Below are positions 7,465 to 61,927 of a stretch of 64,000 nt of DNA, piece by piece. Source of the DNA: Candidatus Coatesiibacteriota bacterium (lineage in GTDB: Bacteria > RBG-13-66-14 > B26-G2 > JAUVZD01); NCBI GenBank assembly GCA_030602715.1, contig JAUVZD010000010.1:1-64000 (forward strand). Reading direction: 5' to 3'. The notes beneath the pieces were generated by a model that saw nothing but the letters and a program-made list of their open reading frames with translations, searched no databases and had not been told where the DNA came from. The position numbers were made by a program, and so were the translations under genes. The number at the start of each line of letters is the position of its first letter. Positions within the stretch are counted from its first letter, which is position 1.

Positions 7465-9156
7465 CTAGCGGATTATCACCATTCGGGCGTTGTCTTCGCC
7501 TGATGGGGAGGATGCGGACAGGGTATAGACCCCGCTGGCAAGACCGGAGACATCCAGTATCTCTTCCAGCTCGGTGGGCTCGGTAGCCTCAAGTTGTTGT
7601 TTAAGGACCAGCCGCCCAGATATATCGTATAGCGAAAGTTCTACCACACAAGCGGAAGGCAGAGCCAACAGGCAGGTCAGATAATCGGACGCCGGGTTGG
7701 GATAGAGGGCCAGGACGGAGAAGGAGGTAGGCTGCCCGGCTGTGGCTTGAGTGGTGCCCAGGGTCTCCGGGTTTTCATCGGCGAGCACCGCCTCCAGCTT
7801 GTATTCGTAGGCAACGCAGGACTCCACATCCGAATCGGTGTAGGTGTAGGGGTTTTGGCCGGTGATGAGCCCAGTATTGACCTTGGTCCATATGCAGCCG
7901 AGGTTTGAAACCTCGGCTGCAATATTATTATTTATCTCCCGGCGATAGAGGTTGAAGCCCAGGATTTGCTCGCCCCCCGCCATAGGCGGGGTGGTCTCAA
8001 CATCCCAATTGATGACTAACGTGCTATCGCCCTTGGGAACGGCAGAGAAGGTGATGAGGTTAATGCCGGTATAGGGACCATACCAGGCATATTTAAGGAT
8101 GTAAGGGTTTGGATAATAATCTACATATGAAATGTGGGGATTGTCATCCGAGTCTAAGGCAATAGATGTATGTGTGCCAACATCTTCTTCTTGGTCAACC
8201 ACAGATATGTTCCACGATGACCCGTCCCAGTAGGCATACATTAGGCCGTGTATATCATAATTATTATACGAAAAGTGGGGGTGGTCCTCGGAGTCCAGGG
8301 CGATAGAGTTAAACATACCCACATCACCATCATCATCAACTACAGAAATATTCCAGGAGATACCATCCCAGAAAGCATACTTGAGGCAATGATAGTTATA
8401 GGGAAAATACGAAATATGGGGATTATTACTTGAGTCCAAGGCGATAGAGGTTTCCCATATACTCATTGATGTGGTGTCGTCTACTGAAGTAATATACCAG
8501 GCGAAGCCGTCCCAGAAGGCATACATGAGGTCATCGTTTAGCCAATCATAAAAAGAAATGTGGGGATTATCCAAAGAGTCTAGAGCGATAGAGGTGTCAT
8601 CGCTACAATATGTATAAACAGGGTTAATATCCCAGGCGGAGCCATCCCAGAAGGCATACCTGAGACCAGCACCACCATACGAAATGTGGGGTTTGTCCCC
8701 GGAATCAATGGCGATGGAGGTATAAGAGCCAGCCCATTCTTCTGTGTCAACCCAGGAAATATTCCAGGTAGAGCCGTCCCAAAAAGCATATTTGAGGTTA
8801 ATATCCACCAACTCCCAAAAACCACCTACTTCCTCCCATATTTCCTCCTGATACGAAATGTGAGGGTGATCAAAGGAGTCCAAGGCCATTGAGGCATAAT
8901 CGCCCACAAAACCTTCATTATCAACTGTGGTAATATCCCAATCGGAGCCGTCCCAGTAAGCATATTTGAGACGAGTTCCGCCATAACTATAATACGAAAT
9001 ATGGGGGTAGCCAATTGAGTCCAGGGCGATAGATGTATCTCCGAAACTTTGATAGTAGGTGTCCACGGACTCAATATGCCAGCCACCTGCAAAGGAAAGC
9101 CCCGATCCTGAGGTCACCATTGTAAAAAGCAACATCAATACCAAAAAGTAGCGCAT
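7465..9156 (-). CDS. Secreted repeat protein (propeller-like) with T9SS sorting domain, copy 1
   Basis: 563 aa. The start at 9156 (M-R-Y-F-L-V-L-M-L-L) follows AAAGGAGG and gives a clean signal peptide. The body has seven 45-55 aa repeats with the core S-I-A-L-D-S-x-D-x-P-H-I-S-Y ... L-x-Y-A-x-W-D-G-S-x-W-x-I ... V-D, probably blades of a beta-propeller. A linker with an Fn3-like look (G-F-N-L-Y-R-R-E ... Y-T-Y-T-D-S-D-V-E) leads to a C-terminal domain with A-L-Y-P-N-P-A-S-D-Y, L-Y-D-I-S-G-R-L-V and G-V-Y-T-L, typical of type A T9SS sorting domains. Paralogs lie at 27094, 57358 and 60245-61927. Exported cargo; ligand unknown. Confidence 0.9.
   Translation of the reverse strand: MRYFLVLMLLFTMVTSGSGLSFAGGWHIESVDTYYQSFGDTSIALDSIGYPHISYYSYGGTRLKYAYWDGSDWDITTVDNEGFVGDYASMALDSFDHPHISYQEEIWEEVGGFWELVDINLKYAFWDGSTWNISWVDTEEWAGSYTSIAIDSGDKPHISYGGAGLRYAFWDGSAWDINPVYTYCSDDTSIALDSLDNPHISFYDWLNDDLMYAFWDGFAWYITSVDDTTSMSIWETSIALDSSNNPHISYFPYNYHCLKYAFWDGISWNISVVDDDGDVGMFNSIALDSEDHPHFSYNNYDIHGLMYAYWDGSSWNISVVDQEEDVGTHTSIALDSDDNPHISYVDYYPNPYILKYAWYGPYTGINLITFSAVPKGDSTLVINWDVETTPPMAGGEQILGFNLYRREINNNIAAEVSNLGCIWTKVNTGLITGQNPYTYTDSDVESCVAYEYKLEAVLADENPETLGTTQATAGQPTSFSVLALYPNPASDYLTCLLALPSACVVELSLYDISGRLVLKQQLEATEPTELEEILDVSGLASGVYTLSASSPSGEDNARMVIIR
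7893..7921. repeat. Perfect palindrome inside the T9SS protein gene (linker region)
   Basis: Two 14-bp arms (7893-7906 TGCAGCCGAGGTTT; 7908-7921 its exact reverse complement) around a single G. It is translated in frame as part of I-A-A-E-V-S-N-L-G-C and lies after the conserved Y-R-R-E block, where paralogs carry other palindromes. Confidence 0.9.
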
Positions 9157-9196
9157 AACTAAAACCTCCTTTTGTATATCCACCTCACTGTCTTCT

Positions 9197-9225
9197 AATA
9201 TACCATAAAATTCATTATCTGTCAA
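9197..9225 (-). promoter_or_regulatory. Sigma70-type promoter for T9SS protein copy 1
   Basis: On the minus strand TTGACA (9225-9220), 17-nt spacer, TATATT (9202-9197), 41 nt before the start codon. A near-consensus vegetative promoter. Confidence 0.7.
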
Positions 9226-27093: not shown

Positions 27094-28881
27094 ATGAGAT
27101 TAATATGTGTGTTGATGTGTATTTTTGTGTCACTTGCGTTAACTACAGGTGTTTCACTGGCTAAAGCTTGGCAATATTCGTTTATGGACTCAGGATGTGA
27201 TGAAATTGATGGAAGCTCAATTGTTATAGGCAACAATGAACAATATCCTTACTTCATTGAAGAAAACACTATAAAAGACCTAAAGTATGCCTATTGGACA
27301 GGTAGCGAGTGGAACATTCAGACTGTAGATTCAGAGGGGAGTGTGGGAAAATGGACTTCGATAGCCCTAGACAGCCAAGATTTCCCTCATATTTCATATT
27401 ATGAGTATATTGACTACTACACCGGTGCCCTCAAGTATGCACAATGGACAGGAAGTGAGTGGTATATCCAGGTAGTTGATTTTGATGGTAATGTGGGTAG
27501 ATATTCCTCCATTGCTTTAGATACTCAGGATTGTGCTCATATTTCCTATTATGATGACAATGACAATAACCTCAAATACTGTAAATGGACGGGTAGCGAG
27601 TGGGAAATCCAGACTGTGGATTCATATGACACCACGGGAAAATACACCTCAATCGCCCTAGACTCTCAGGATAATCCGCATATATCATATTGTTTTGGTG
27701 GATACTATACTAACCTTAAGTATGCCTACTGGACGGGAAGCGTCTGGGAAATATATACCGTTGATGGTAGTCCGCATGCTGGTTTACATAGTTCTGTTTC
27801 CGTTGACTCCCAAGACTACCCACATATCTCGTATTCTAATCAGTATGTTGTTAATTCTCTTTGGTATGCAAAATGGAATGGTAATTTTTTTGAAAAACAG
27901 GTTGTAGACACAGGTGAGGCAGGCAGATTTAATTCAATAGCCATTGATTCTCAAAACCAACCTCACATATCGTATAAAGGTGGAAGTGGAAATCTAGAGT
28001 ATGCCCATTGTACGGGTAGTGGGTGGGATAAACAAATTGTGGATGATGGATTTGCGTTTTCAGGAACCTCAATAGCTATTGATAGCCAAGATTATCCCCA
28101 TGTATCCTATTATGCCGCTAAAAATGAAGATCTTAAGTATTCATACTGGACAGGTGAAGATTGGGAAATACAGGTTGTGGACTCTGAATTGGAAGTGGGT
28201 AAGTATAGTTCCATTGCTCTAGATGATCACAACTACCCCCATATCAGCTATTTTTATTTAGGTTGTCAATTAGGAACAGATGTGGAACTTATCTCCTTTA
28301 ACGCTCAAGCAAAAGGGAATACCATTTCCATCACCTGGCACGTCCAAACCACCGAGGGCGAGCAGATCGCCGGCTTCAACCTCTACCGCCGGGAGATGAT
28401 AGATGAAATGACCTCGCTCGGCGAGGATAGGTATCCTCGCCTTCTGGAAGATAATTGGCAGAAGATAAACCCCGACCTCATCACCGGCGAGAACCCTTAC
28501 TCCTACACCGACTCACATGTGGATTTCGGCGTAGCCTACCAATACAAACTGGAGGCGGTGCTCGCCGCCGACGCCCCGGAAATACTGGGCACCACCCAAG
28601 CGACAGCAGGACAGCCCATCTCCTTCTCCATCCTGGCCCTCTATCCCAACCCCTCATCCGATAATCTTACCTGCCTGCTGGCTCTGCCCGAGGCAGGACC
28701 AGTGGAACTTACCCTATACGACATCTCCGGGCGGCTGGTGCTTGAACGGCGATTTGAGGCTACCGAGCCCACCGAGATGGAAGCGGTGATTGATGTCTCC
28801 AATCTGGCTAGCGGGGTTTATACCCTGCGGGCGAACCAAGGGGGCTTAGAGGCTAGCGCCAGGGCAGTGGTGTTGCGGTAA
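27094..28881 (+). CDS. Secreted repeat protein (propeller-like) with T9SS sorting domain, copy 2
   Basis: 595 aa with signal peptide M-R-L-I-C-V-L-M-C-I-F-V-S-L-A-L. Eight repeats carry the family core (S-I-A-L-D-S-Q-D-x-P-H-I-S-Y ... L-K-Y-A-x-W-T-G-S-E-W-x-I-Q). The last is cut short before the linker G-F-N-L-Y-R-R-E-M, then the T9SS sorting domain (A-L-Y-P-N-P-S-S-D-N, L-Y-D-I-S-G-R-L-V, G-V-Y-T-L-R-A, ending A-V-V-L-R). The repeat part is clearly AT-richer than the last 560 bp, suggesting a mosaic gene in which a GC-rich export cassette was joined to, or homogenised among, paralogs. This copy is intact. Confidence 0.92.
   Translation: MRLICVLMCIFVSLALTTGVSLAKAWQYSFMDSGCDEIDGSSIVIGNNEQYPYFIEENTIKDLKYAYWTGSEWNIQTVDSEGSVGKWTSIALDSQDFPHISYYEYIDYYTGALKYAQWTGSEWYIQVVDFDGNVGRYSSIALDTQDCAHISYYDDNDNNLKYCKWTGSEWEIQTVDSYDTTGKYTSIALDSQDNPHISYCFGGYYTNLKYAYWTGSVWEIYTVDGSPHAGLHSSVSVDSQDYPHISYSNQYVVNSLWYAKWNGNFFEKQVVDTGEAGRFNSIAIDSQNQPHISYKGGSGNLEYAHCTGSGWDKQIVDDGFAFSGTSIAIDSQDYPHVSYYAAKNEDLKYSYWTGEDWEIQVVDSELEVGKYSSIALDDHNYPHISYFYLGCQLGTDVELISFNAQAKGNTISITWHVQTTEGEQIAGFNLYRREMIDEMTSLGEDRYPRLLEDNWQKINPDLITGENPYSYTDSHVDFGVAYQYKLEAVLAADAPEILGTTQATAGQPISFSILALYPNPSSDNLTCLLALPEAGPVELTLYDISGRLVLERRFEATEPTEMEAVIDVSNLASGVYTLRANQGGLEASARAVVLR
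28420..28441. repeat. Palindrome in the linker of T9SS protein copy 2
   Basis: Arms GGCGAGGATA and TATCCTCGCC around GG, translated in frame as G-E-D-R-Y-P-R. It matches the palindrome at 60687-60710 and half of it recurs in intergenic hairpins at 57268, 59134 and 60193. Confidence 0.9.
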
Positions 28882-28914: not shown

Positions 28915-28950
28915 AAAAGCCCCCCCGCCTTTGGCGGGGGGGGGCTTTTT
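28915..28950. terminator. Bidirectional terminator
   Basis: A very GC-rich stem (AAAAGCCCCCCCGCC with its complement) ends in T5 on the plus strand and is preceded by A4, so it can serve both the T9SS protein gene and the convergent DUF1847 gene. Confidence 0.85.
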
Positions 28951-55909: not shown

Positions 55910-57268
55910 GTGCGGGTTAACCCCCGAATTTTCCGTGAGTATGATATCCGTGGTCTGGTGGATGTTGACCTCAACGATACCAGCGTGGAGTTGATAGGCA
56001 AGGGGGTAGGCACCTACCTGCGTAAGAGGGATGTTTCCCAAGCCTCTTTGGGCTGGGACTGTCGGCTCAGTTCGCCAGGCTACCGGGATGCAATTCGGCG
56101 GGGACTGCTCTCCACCGGCGTCGGTGTGGTGGAGATAGGCTCGGTGGCTACCCCGGTCTTCTACTTCGCCAATTATCACTACAACCTTCCGGGCGGGGTG
56201 ATGATAACCGGAAGCCACAACCCGGCGGAGTTCAACGGCTTCAAGGTGGCTTGCGGTAGGGGGACCATCTTCGGGGAGGATATCGGGGAGATATACGAAA
56301 TTATCAACCGAGGGGACTTCCAGAGCGGTGAGGGCAAGGTCAGTAGTATTGACCCCCTGCCGGAATATAAGTCCCACCTGCTCTCCCTCATCAGCAGAGA
56401 TGCTCCATTGAAGGTGGTGGTGGATGCCGGCTCGGGAATGGCTGGTCCCATCGCCCCGGAACTACTTGAAGCCTGTGGCTGTCAGGTAATCCCCCTCTAC
56501 TGTCAGCCGGACGGTCGCTTTCCCCATCACCATCCCGACCCCACGGTTCTGGAGAATCTTGCCGACCTGATAGCAACAGTAAAGAAGGAGCAGGCGGATG
56601 TGGGCATCGCCTTTGACGGCGACGCCGACCGCATCGGCGCCACAGATGAGCGAGGCGAGGTGGTCTTCGGCGACCGCCTGTTAGCTCTCTACGCCCGGGA
56701 GGTGCTGGCAAAACATCCCGGCGCTAAGATAATCTTTGAGGTCAAGTGCTCCCAGGCGCTGATTGAGGACATTTCCGCTCACGGCGGGGTGCCCATTATG
56801 TGGAAGACGGGTCACTCGCTGATAGAGCGGAAGATTCACCAGGAGAAGGCGCTACTGGCGGGGGAGATGAGCGGGCATATCTACTTTGCGGACAACTACT
56901 ACGGCTACGACGACGCCCTCTATGCCTCCCTGCGGCTGGTGGAACTTCTTGCTGAGGCGGGGCGCCCCCTCTCCCAAATGCTCGCCGAACTGCCCCAATA
57001 TGTCTCCACCCCGGAGATACGGATTGATTGTCCCGATGATGTCAAATTTGATGTGGTGGAGGAGCTCACGGAGTTCTTCAGTAGGGATTATGACACCATA
57101 ACCGTGGACGGTGTGCGGGTCAACTTCGGCGACGGCTGGGGGCTCATCCGCGCCTCCAACACTCAGCCGGCGCTGGTCCTGCGCTTTGAGGCGAAGACGG
57201 AAGAACGGTTGGAGGAGATTAGGGGGTTGATGGAGGGTAAGCTGGAGGAAGTGATGGGGAAAAGATAG
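55910..57268 (+). CDS. Phosphomannomutase/phosphoglucomutase
   Basis: 452 aa. GTG start behind AGGAGG. All four functional loops of the alpha-D-phosphohexomutase family are present: phosphoserine loop M-I-T-G-S-H-N-P-A-E-F, metal loop F-D-G-D-A-D-R-I-G, sugar loop G-E-M-S-G-H-I-Y-F and phosphate loop R-A-S-N-T-Q-P-A-L-V-L-R. G-E-M-S-G-H is the dual-specificity PMM/PGM form (AlgC-like). It supplies mannose-1-P or glucose-1-P for glycan synthesis. Confidence 0.95.
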   Translation: MRVNPRIFREYDIRGLVDVDLNDTSVELIGKGVGTYLRKRDVSQASLGWDCRLSSPGYRDAIRRGLLSTGVGVVEIGSVATPVFYFANYHYNLPGGVMITGSHNPAEFNGFKVACGRGTIFGEDIGEIYEIINRGDFQSGEGKVSSIDPLPEYKSHLLSLISRDAPLKVVVDAGSGMAGPIAPELLEACGCQVIPLYCQPDGRFPHHHPDPTVLENLADLIATVKKEQADVGIAFDGDADRIGATDERGEVVFGDRLLALYAREVLAKHPGAKIIFEVKCSQALIEDISAHGGVPIMWKTGHSLIERKIHQEKALLAGEMSGHIYFADNYYGYDDALYASLRLVELLAEAGRPLSQMLAELPQYVSTPEIRIDCPDDVKFDVVEELTEFFSRDYDTITVDGVRVNFGDGWGLIRASNTQPALVLRFEAKTEERLEEIRGLMEGKLEEVMGKR

Positions 57269-57369
57269 GCGAGGATTAACATACTCGCTTTTTTGGGAGT
57301 GAAAAAGAGGGCGGTTGAGCCGCCCTCTCGTTTTATTTGGATAAACTCCGTTCTATCTCACCACCACCG
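57267..57369. repeat. 103-bp direct repeat, copy A (3' end of T9SS protein copy 3)
   Basis: Matches 59133-59235 without gaps and with three mismatches by my count. It contains a GGCGAGGATT hairpin, a second hairpin (GAGGGCGG / CCGCCCTC), the stop codon and the last codons (V-V-V-R) of the T9SS tail. The hairpins probably terminate transcription from both sides. Confidence 0.95.
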
Positions 57370-59034
57370 CCCTGGCGCTAACCTCAGCGCCGTGGTAAGA
57401 CGCCCGCAAGGTGTAAACCCCGCTCGCCAGACCGGAGCATCCAGTATCGCTTCCAGCTCGGTGGGCTCGGTAGCCTCAAGATGTTGGCTGAGCACCAGCC
57501 TTCCCGACAGGTCGTATAGCATAAGTTCCACAGGACCGGCTTCAGGCAGAGCCAGCAGGCAGGTCAGCATGTCGGACGCCGGATTGGGGTAGAGGGCTAA
57601 GATGGCGAAGGAGGCTGGTAGTAGCCCGGCTGTTGCTTGAGTGGTGCCCAGGGTCTCCTGGCTGTCATCGGCGAGCACTGCGGATAGCTTGTATTCGTAA
57701 GCGACGCCGGGTTCCACATCCGAGTCGGTGTAGGTATAAGGATTCTCGCCGGTGATGATGGTGGGATTAATCTTTATCCAGTCGTCTTTAATGCCATGAT
57801 GGGCGATGTCGGCGAGGGAAGACTGTTCCGCGGACAACTCCCGGCGGTAGAGGTTGAAGCCGGTTATTTGGTCGCCCTCGGTTATATCCACACTCCATCG
57901 TAAGGAGATGGCGGAGTTATCTGGTTTGGCGGTGAAGTGGTCCAGGGTGATTTTGCTTATTGTTCCATACCAAGCATATTTTAGGTCTTGATTGGAGATG
58001 GCGTAATATGAGATATGAGGATAGTCTTGGTTGTCCAAGGCGAGGGAGGTATACCAGCCCACTTTTCCTTGATAGTCAACAACTTGGATGTCCCATTCAC
58101 TACCTGTCCAATGTGCGTATTTGAGATCACCGTTGGTGTCGTCATAATACGATATGTGAGGGTAGTCCTGGCTGTCGATAGAAAGGGAATTTTCATCACC
58201 TACATGCCCATTGTCGTCCACAGTCTGAATATCCCAGTTACCACCAGTCCATTGGGCATACCTAAGGTGTTGGAAGGGGTAGTCATCATAGGCATACGAG
58301 ATATGAGGATTCTCTTCACTGTCTAGAGCTATGCAGTTAAACATGCCAACAAACCAATAGTAGTCAATTGTCTGTATGTTCCATTCACTCCCCGTCCAGC
58401 AGGCATACTTGAGGTCGCCGGTGTAGCCACCAACGTAATATGAAATATGTGGGTAGTCATCACCGTCTAGGACGAGGAAGTTATGAGGTCCTGCAAACTC
58501 TTCTGAATCCACAGTCTGTATCTCCCATTCAATTCCCGTCCAACAGGCGTACTTGAGGTTGCTGTCGCCATAAAAAGAGATGTGTGGATGGTCTTGGCTA
58601 TCTAGGGCGATGGAGCTTTGTTCACCTATACCCGCAGCAGAGCCCACAATCTGGATTTCCCATTCACTGCCATTCCATTTGGCATACTTGAGGGCACCGG
58701 TGTAGTAGTCAATATACTCATAATACGTAATATGAGGGAAATCTTGGCTGTCTAGAGCGATTGAGGGCCTACTGCCCACATCCCCTTCTGAGTCCACAGT
58801 ATGAATTTCCCATTCACTCCCCGTCCAACAGGCATACTTGAGGTCGTATTCAAAATCCTCAGAATACGCATATGAGATATGAGGATAGCCCTGACTGTCA
58901 AGAGCCATAGAGGAAAATACTCCAACTATCCCCTCATAGTCCACAATGGTGGTATGCCAGTCTTGAGCAAACAATATATTCCCACCAAGTATGAAAGTTG
59001 CCAAAAAGGCAATCACTACCGCTAAATTGCGCAA
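57358..59034 (-). CDS. Secreted repeat protein with frameshifted T9SS sorting domain, copy 3
   Basis: 558 aa as read, TTG start behind AAGGAGG. Signal M-R-N-L-A-V-V-I-A-F-L-A-T-F-I-L. Seven family repeats, Y-R-R-E linker and sorting domain up to T-E-L-E-A-I-L-D. From there the frame reads A-P-V-W-R-A-G-F-T-P and ends G-R-W-W, while the other frame gives the normal S-G-L-A-S-G-V-Y-T-L-R-A ... V-V-V-R, ending at 57353. One A is missing on the plus strand near 57437/57438 compared with paralog 60245. The sorting tail is therefore broken unless this is a sequence error. Confidence 0.9.
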   Translation of the reverse strand: MRNLAVVIAFLATFILGGNILFAQDWHTTIVDYEGIVGVFSSMALDSQGYPHISYAYSEDFEYDLKYACWTGSEWEIHTVDSEGDVGSRPSIALDSQDFPHITYYEYIDYYTGALKYAKWNGSEWEIQIVGSAAGIGEQSSIALDSQDHPHISFYGDSNLKYACWTGIEWEIQTVDSEEFAGPHNFLVLDGDDYPHISYYVGGYTGDLKYACWTGSEWNIQTIDYYWFVGMFNCIALDSEENPHISYAYDDYPFQHLRYAQWTGGNWDIQTVDDNGHVGDENSLSIDSQDYPHISYYDDTNGDLKYAHWTGSEWDIQVVDYQGKVGWYTSLALDNQDYPHISYYAISNQDLKYAWYGTISKITLDHFTAKPDNSAISLRWSVDITEGDQITGFNLYRRELSAEQSSLADIAHHGIKDDWIKINPTIITGENPYTYTDSDVEPGVAYEYKLSAVLADDSQETLGTTQATAGLLPASFAILALYPNPASDMLTCLLALPEAGPVELMLYDLSGRLVLSQHLEATEPTELEAILDAPVWRAGFTPCGRLTTALRLAPGRWW

Positions 59035-59132: not shown

Positions 59133-59235
59133 AGGCGAGGATTAACATCCTCGCTTTTTTGGGAGTGAAAAAGAGGGCGGTTGAGCCGCCCTCTCATTTT
59201 ATTTGGATAAACTTCGTTCTATCTCACCACCACCG
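59133..59235. repeat. 103-bp direct repeat, copy B (3' end of an unrelated gene)
   Basis: Copy of 57267-57369. Here the first hairpin is perfect (GCGAGGA / TCCTCGC followed by T6). It supplies the final V-V-V-R-stop codons of the membrane protein at 59219-59962. Confidence 0.95.
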
Positions 59236-60189: not shown

Positions 60190-60244
60190 TAGAAGGCGAG
60201 GATACACGGACATAGAAGGCGGATATATATATTCTCCCAGTGTT

Positions 60245-60787
60245 CTATCTGACCACCACCGCCCTGGCGCTCACCTCAGCGCCGTGGTAAGACGCCCGCA
60301 GAGTGTAAACCCCCCTCGCCAGACCGGAGACATCCAGCGTCGCTTCCATCTCGGTGGGCTCGGTAGCCTCAAGTTGTTGCTTAAGCACCAGCCGCCCCGA
60401 CAGGTCGTATAGGGCTATCTCCACCAAACCAGCCTCGGGCATAGCCAGCAGACAGGTCATATAATCCGACGCCGGGTTGGGATAGAGGGCGAGTATGGTG
60501 AAGGAGGCTGGTGGTAGTCCTGCGGTGGCTTGGGTGGTGCCCAGGATCTCCGGGCTGTCATCGGCGAGCACCGCCTCCAGCTTGTATTCGTAGGCGACGC
60601 CGGACTCAACATCTGAGTCGGTGTAGGAGTAGGGGTTTTGTCCGGTGCTGAGGTCGCCATTAATTTTCAACCAATCATGCACCGGAAGGCGAGGATACAT
60701 ATCCTCGCCTAGGGGGGACATCTCAGCTACCAACTCCCGCCGATAGAGGTTAAAGCCGGCGATTTGCTCGCCCTTAGTGGTCTCCAC
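60245..60787 (-). pseudogene. C-terminal part of T9SS protein copy 4, cut off by an in-frame stop
   Basis: Contains the linker (G-F-N-L-Y-R-R-E) and an intact T9SS sorting domain (A-L-Y-P-N-P-A-S-D-Y, L-Y-D-L-S-G-R-L-V, ending A-V-V-V-R). It is in the same frame as the repeat protein at 60854-61927. Between them lies only TAA at 60854-60856, after which S-F-S-A-Q-Y-E-D-G-A-V-A-R-E-W-S reads on exactly as in the paralogs. The GTG at 60787 has no ribosome site, so this part is expressed only by read-through, reinitiation, or not at all. Confidence 0.85.
60687..60710. repeat. Palindrome in the linker of T9SS protein copy 4
   Basis: Arms AGGCGAGGATA (60687-60697) and TATCCTCGCCT (60700-60710), read in frame as G-E-D-M-Y-P-R. 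Same place and nearly the same sequence as 28420-28441. Confidence 0.9.
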
Positions 60788-60853
60788 GCTCCATTCCCGG
60801 GCTACGGCGCCGTCCTCATACTGAGCGGAGAAGGAGAGGAGGAGAACATCGGC

Positions 60854-61927
60854 TTAGGGATTATATCTGGCATACTTCAGAGCACCATTAGCATAATTAT
60901 AATAATAATAAGAAATGTTGGGGTAATCTAAAGAATCCAAAACTATTGAGGTATATTGGCCCACATCGTCAGCAGTGTCCACGAAGGTGATAGACCAAGC
61001 GGAACCGGTCCAGTAGGCATACTTCAGGGCACCATTAGGAAAATCATGATAATAATAAGAAATGTGTGGGTTATCTGAAGAATCTAAGGCTATTGAGGTA
61101 TTATGCCCTACATTTCCAGCTGTGTCAACGGAGGCAATAGACCAGGTCGAACCATTCCAGTAGGCATACTTCAGGTCAAAATTAGTATCATCAAAATAAG
61201 AAATGTGCGGGTAATCTGAAGAATCTAAAGCTATTGAGTTATCAAACCCCATATATCCAGTGGCATCCACGGAGACGATAGACCATTCGGAACCGGTCCA
61301 GTAGGCATACTTCAGGTCATTATTAGACCCATAATAAGAAATGTGCGGGTAGTCTGAAGAATCCAAGGCTATTGAGTTATTATACCCTACTACATTTCCA
61401 ATGGTGTCCACGGAGGTGATAGACCAGGTCGAACCGGTCCAGTAAGCATATTTCAGGTTACCATTAGTGTAATCAAGATAAGAAATGTGGGGGTAATCTG
61501 AAGCATCCAAGGCTATTGAGGTATGCAACCCTACGTCTCCAGCGGTGTCCACGGAGGTGATAGACCAGGCGGAACCATTCCAGTAGGCATACTTCAGGTC
61601 TTGGTTAGGATAATCATCATAATAAGAAATGTGCGGGTAGTCTGAAGAATCCAAGGCTATTGAGGTATACGCACCCACATTTCCAGCGGTGTCCACAGAG
61701 GTGATTGACCAGGCGGAACCATTCCAGTAGGCATACTTCAGGTCATAATTAGTACCATCACAATAAGAAATGTGGGGGTTATCTGAAGAATCCAAGGCTA
61801 TTGAGGTACACTTCCCCACATCTCCAGCGGTGTCCACAAACTGGATAAACCAGTTCTCGTTGTCAGAAAAAGTAGAACATGAAACAATCACCAATAAAAA
61901 GGCGAGAAGAATTGCAATCTTTATCAT
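60854..61927 (-). CDS. Repeat (propeller-like) lipoprotein, copy 4, N-terminal part
   Basis: 357 aa. Signal M-I-K-I-A-I-L-L-A-F-L-L-V-I-V-S-C-S is a lipoprotein signal, unlike the other three copies. Seven highly regular repeats follow (T-S-I-A-L-D-S-S-D-Y-P-H-I-S-Y ... L-K-Y-A-Y-W-N-G-S-A-W-S-I). The frame stops in the last, short repeat at L-K-Y-A-R-Y-N-P-TAA. The repeats here are nearly identical to one another, so the array is young or homogenised. The truncated protein could still be made as a lipoprotein without T9SS export. Confidence 0.9.
   Translation of the reverse strand: MIKIAILLAFLLVIVSCSTFSDNENWFIQFVDTAGDVGKCTSIALDSSDNPHISYCDGTNYDLKYAYWNGSAWSITSVDTAGNVGAYTSIALDSSDYPHISYYDDYPNQDLKYAYWNGSAWSITSVDTAGDVGLHTSIALDASDYPHISYLDYTNGNLKYAYWTGSTWSITSVDTIGNVVGYNNSIALDSSDYPHISYYGSNNDLKYAYWTGSEWSIVSVDATGYMGFDNSIALDSSDYPHISYFDDTNFDLKYAYWNGSTWSIASVDTAGNVGHNTSIALDSSDNPHISYYYHDFPNGALKYAYWTGSAWSITFVDTADDVGQYTSIVLDSLDYPNISYYYYNYANGALKYARYNP

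Follow-up and report, generated by a model that had tools for sequence, protein, structure and literature searches.

Short palindromic repeats, probably REP-like, recur in loops of T9SS-tailed proteins in a Candidatus Coatesiibacteriota genome

The stretch of DNA considered here (the window) is 64,000 nucleotides long and belongs to a Candidatus Coatesiibacteriota genome of 2.31 Mb in 18 contigs. It carries paralogous genes for T9SS-tailed proteins, with short palindromes inside and between them:

7465..9225, minus strand: T9SS-tailed secreted protein of 586 aa (TIGR04183, 30.9 bits), with palindromes at sites A and B
7893..7921, minus strand: class-2 (GTAGCGGAG-like) palindrome at linker site B, 14-bp arms and 1-nt centre, in frame (AAEVSNLGC)
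7975..7991, minus strand: site-A palindrome of gene 7465..9225, 17 bp (CCCCGCC-ATA-GGCGGGG), reading TTPPMAGGEQ where paralogs without it have TTEGEQ
27094..28881, plus strand: T9SS-tailed secreted protein of 595 aa (TIGR04183, 38.2 bits; PF18962, 46.6 bits)
28420..28441, plus strand: class-1 palindrome GGCGAGGATA-gg-TATCCTCGCC at linker site B, 10-bp arms, in frame (GEDRYPRL)
28920..28942: terminator-like hairpin in the 3' flank, containing CCCCGCCTTTGGCGGGG
57268..57289: intergenic class-1 copy, right arm broken
57306..57328: 3'-flank hairpin AGAGGGCGGTTGAGCCGCCCTCT
57358..59034, minus strand: T9SS-tailed paralog without a site-B palindrome, its tail frameshifted by one base relative to the paralog at 60245
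59134..59155: intergenic class-1 copy GGCGAGGATTAACATCCTCGCT, a good hairpin with 8-bp arms
59172..59194: 3'-flank hairpin, an identical copy of that at 57306..57328
60245..61927, minus strand: T9SS-tailed paralog in two ORFs, its translation interrupted before the tail by an in-frame stop
60687..60710, minus strand: class-1 palindrome at linker site B, 11-bp arms, in frame (GEDMYPRL)

Two of the window proteins were tested against TIGR04183 and both score above its cut-off of 23 bits, so that each has the type A sorting domain of T9SS cargo; about 35 matches to this tail are found across the genome. The paralog at 60245-61927, split by its stop, is possibly a pseudogene.

The palindromes at 7893-7921, 28420-28441 and 60687-60710 had been pointed out in an earlier, sequence-only reading of the window. 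They are exact, with arms of 14, 10 and 11 bp respectively, and all three lie in frame in the same linker (site B), after the F-N-L-Y-R-R motif of the T9SS-tailed proteins. As that reading had also proposed, the first is of a different class from the other two; this class has further members in the genome, including an identical copy in a paralog (G000:C14:22351-22833). In predicted structures, confidence is lower at site B than at any other loop (pLDDT 55-65). In 8 of the 12 closest paralogs the site-B linker holds a perfect palindrome with arms of at least 10 bp, whereas codon shuffling produced 0 such genes in 300. The palindromes of this single loop fall into at least four sequence classes: class 1 (three paralogs, one copy apparently inverted), class 2 (two), GTAAGG 28-mers (two) and GACCCCGCC...GGCGGGGTC (one). 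In one paralog (L044) the site-B palindrome has decayed, and many T9SS paralogs have no palindrome at all.

The palindrome classes found in genes recur between them. With up to three mismatches, the class-1 sequence GGCGAGGATANNTATCCTCGCC has 15 matches in the 2.31-Mb genome and 0 in the reversed control, which is beyond chance, and 12 of the 15 copies lie outside T9SS genes. Of three intergenic GGCGAGGAT hairpins reported previously, only the one at 59134 is sound; at 57268 the right arm is broken, and at 60195 there is no matching arm. The genome was examined by pattern searches and by stretches totalling about 722 kb (31% of it). A census of 442 kb, a sample biased by having been picked partly around class-1 matches, yielded 31 palindromes with arms of at least 10 bp and a centre of at most 4, where 2.0 were expected; the two that were inspected in other credible genes appear to be due to chance. 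Elsewhere, the class-1 pattern was found in none of 40 relatives, a search of plasmid records found none, the palindromes have no match in Rfam, and a literature text search for the GTAGGGGCG string returned unrelated papers only. A contig scan gave two weak Chloroflexi matches and one close match, Ca. Coatesbacteria CP070755.1, the closest named relative found, in whose linker there is no palindrome.

A shorter class of 17 bp (CCCCGCC-NNN-GGCGGGG) occupies two further loops of the T9SS tail: site A, before GFNLYRR, and site C, near the C-terminus. The sequence-only reading had spoken of one fixed protein loop; site B does recur, but two more tail loops and loops of unrelated proteins are also used. 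In the same biased 442-kb sample there are 33 copies of this class and 0 of the mirror control, and it is rarer in 280 kb chosen elsewhere (5 copies). It is largely intragenic and stands in frame in many other long ORFs, some of which are perhaps not genes. In tyrosyl-tRNA synthetase the 17-mer lies where the protein has 5 inserted residues in comparison with solved homologs, directly before the C-terminal domain; in a methylase it coincides with a 12-residue insertion, judged likewise against solved homologs, and two methylases that are 45% identical have a common palindrome-bearing loop before NPPY. A QueC-like protein matched nothing in the PDB at 1e-10. In comparison with paralogs without it, a 17-bp palindrome at site A or C makes the gene longer by a net 12 bp, and at one methylase site the palindrome is present with no change of length, which argues for replacement rather than clean insertion; no target-site duplication was seen.

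Several other occurrences of this class deserve mention. Each of two Eco57I-like methylases (L021:5221-8256; L239, a 974-aa ORF on the minus strand) contains several 17-bp palindromes, of which some occupy loops that correspond in the two proteins, and a group of Mu-like, prophage-looking genes (L026:4870-8856; family judged by eye only) has several in frame. At L027:14110-14138 and 14713, 17-bp palindromes are nested in GTAGCGGA...TCCGCT hairpins, which looks like the entry of one class into another.

The palindromes turn over faster than the genes that carry them, since adjacent recent duplicates differ in every palindrome: the neighbours L037 and L039, whose tails are closely similar, are unlike each other at all three sites (A, B, C) and also behind the stop codon. 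L039 and L042 have a common palindrome in which one symmetric pair is different, and the tree of the tails, which is poorly resolved, needs at least seven changes of palindrome class. Moreover, the two arms change together. In class 1, changes fall on both sides in 5 of 9 pairs, and the covariation score of the 28-bp class is 0.408 against 0.121, with 0 of 500 shuffles as high in either case; the search patterns behind both sets hold part of the stem constant, so that weight attaches only to the free columns, above all columns 10-14 of the 28-mer.

The nearest relative (G001), of the same order but another family, has GTAAGGGAGAATTATAATTCTCCCTTAC in three T9SS linkers. The same 28-bp family is found there in frame in the gene of a REP-associated tyrosine transposase (RAYT; NF047646, 119.5 bits) and at an adjoining intergenic site, so that one palindrome family is common to T9SS linkers and a RAYT gene. 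In other members of the phylum (G002, G003 and G012), RAYT-like genes carry the GTAG...CTAC palindrome of their own genome, placed in frame after the HuH motif (MPNHxHGI); genes with this motif score below the curated cut-off of the RAYT model, whereas the G001 gene is above it. An in-frame palindrome follows the motif in 5 of the 6 such genes examined, and no palindrome remains in the sixth (G004:C75). Two genomes outside the phylum have the same arrangement (L138, L139). Word searches of a few RAYT papers and a literature search found no mention of such internal copies. RAYT-like genes with the genome's own palindrome embedded lie at L220-L226, and the gene in G003:C7 is also flanked by the same 28-mer or a one-pair variant. 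On a broader scale, 45 of 290 genomes contain GTAGGGGCG...CGCCCCTAC palindromes, whose centres vary but are mostly self-complementary, and Y1 transposases are commoner in these pattern-positive genomes (38/45 vs 133/245; Fisher P 1.2e-4), yet G150, with 147 palindrome copies, falls outside the set with a Y1 match. RAYTs of this phylum have canonical GTAG hairpins on their flanks. Two models found no RAYT in the window's genome, which consequently has no known mover of its palindromes.

In our opinion, the palindromes are probably REP-like elements that have spread into permissive loops and whose arms are kept perfect at the DNA level. Most likely they would descend from elements moved by RAYTs, which could enter or replace short DNA stretches and survive in genes wherever they fall in frame within a flexible loop, the peptides they encode there being presumably neutral. 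T9SS-tailed genes would be favoured as hosts by the size of their paralog family and the tolerance of their loops, and copies might then spread among the paralogs by duplication and gene conversion. That the arms stay perfect despite sequence change is most simply explained if DNA is copied from arm to arm, a process that would run via template switching or fold-back synthesis, or if each copy is laid down palindromic. The RAYT may have been lost from the window's genome. Counting against this reading are that no RAYT was detected there and no target-site duplication seen, that replacement fits better than clean insertion, that an unpaired GTAG tag is mostly absent, and that G150 lies outside the Y1-matching set. 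The earlier suggestion of a small mobile element like those of Rickettsia gains from the presence of the same palindromes between genes, in unrelated gene families and in the RAYT genes of relatives; mobility itself is something that we infer from distribution and turnover. A more speculative extension, which we regard as possible but doubtful, is that the cognate palindrome inside the RAYT gene is kept at a fixed loop because it is functional, either as an autoregulatory binding site or as a template for new palindromes, and that the same system colonises T9SS loops and so diversifies the linkers of surface proteins.

It seems unlikely that no mobile element is involved and that template switching at chance imperfect inverted repeats both makes and perfects palindromes in unconstrained protein loops. 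Template switching is documented in coding DNA (PMC8604942) and in hairpins (PMC8794818), and it would account for the perfect arms, their covariation and the replacement without clean insertion, but not for the finding of the same classes at unrelated loci as well as in RAYT genes. We consider it quite unlikely that the hairpin is selected for an mRNA or DNA role in T9SS cargo genes, such as pausing, stability or co-regulation. That it recurs at one and the same linker among paralogs, even in another family of the order, that the arms covary and that hairpins also stand after stop codons would all suit such a role; the many paralogs without a palindrome, the decay in L044 and the 17-bp class in unrelated genes speak against it, as do the 20 departures from arm pairing, which include 5 G-T and 6 A-C and hence no G-U excess. 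With no Rfam match either, the purely RNA-structural option of the sequence-only reading is weakened. Recombination seeding, whereby the palindromes would shuffle the tails and loops of surface proteins, is improbable: L038 and L040 are identical over the linker and diverge on either side of it, and two window paralogs are broken, but such identity tracts are few and short and a palindrome also lies in an essential gene that has nothing to do with surface proteins. Chance or ordinary codon conservation can be rejected, given the 0 of 300 codon shuffles and the symmetric arm changes that alter the protein (GEDMYPRL vs GENTYSRL).

The palindromes resemble several known systems in part. Like them, REP elements are dispersed palindromes, of 20-40 bp, often right behind stop codons, with complementary stem changes and sometimes within ORFs (PMC3733652, PMC2817692, PMC8266576). 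Classes 1-3 (22-30 bp) have the length of GTAG REPs and REPtrons, the 17-bp class being shorter, and class 1 is likewise dispersed and mainly extragenic, whereas the 17-bp class is largely intragenic. Most copies, however, are without the unpaired GTAG tag: class 1 is tagless, the GTAG-like ends of class 2 are largely paired and the GTAAGG ends are paired, whereas canonical unpaired tags are seen in relatives. The RAYT association, too, is missing from the window's genome but present in G001, G002, G003 and G012. Since both the unpaired tag and a resident RAYT are lacking there, we do not claim membership of the GTAG superfamily. Their repeated occurrence in one loop of a family of secreted proteins further distinguishes these palindromes from REPs and REPtrons. 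Like the Rickettsia palindromic elements, of which RPE-4 and RPE-6 are classed as CGTC REPs (PMC3733652), they occur both between genes and in frame within unrelated genes (here those of TyrRS, two methylases and T9SS proteins); compared by description only, RPE-1 is longer (PMC3733652) than the 17-30 bp found here. The coding palindromes of Nematomorpha mitochondria (PMC6649704) are also perfect inverted repeats retained within coding sequence, but they reach 284 bp and lie in conserved protein regions, unlike the dispersed repeats in loops described here. Inverted repeats homogenised by template switching (PMC8604942, PMC8794818) have arms that change together as well, but they do not form a family of dispersed sequences.

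REPs inside genes and the Rickettsia palindromic elements are already known; what is notable here is that palindromes recur at fixed loops, turn over fast and occur within RAYT genes themselves. Short palindromic repeats have been written repeatedly into the same permissive loops of at least three protein families with their arms still perfect, and they can be seen as short repeats that proteins are able to take in undamaged. The palindromes within RAYT genes offer a direct lead on how REPs are recognized or manufactured, and a genome rich in such elements, in which no RAYT was found, may serve as a natural control for loss of the mobiliser.
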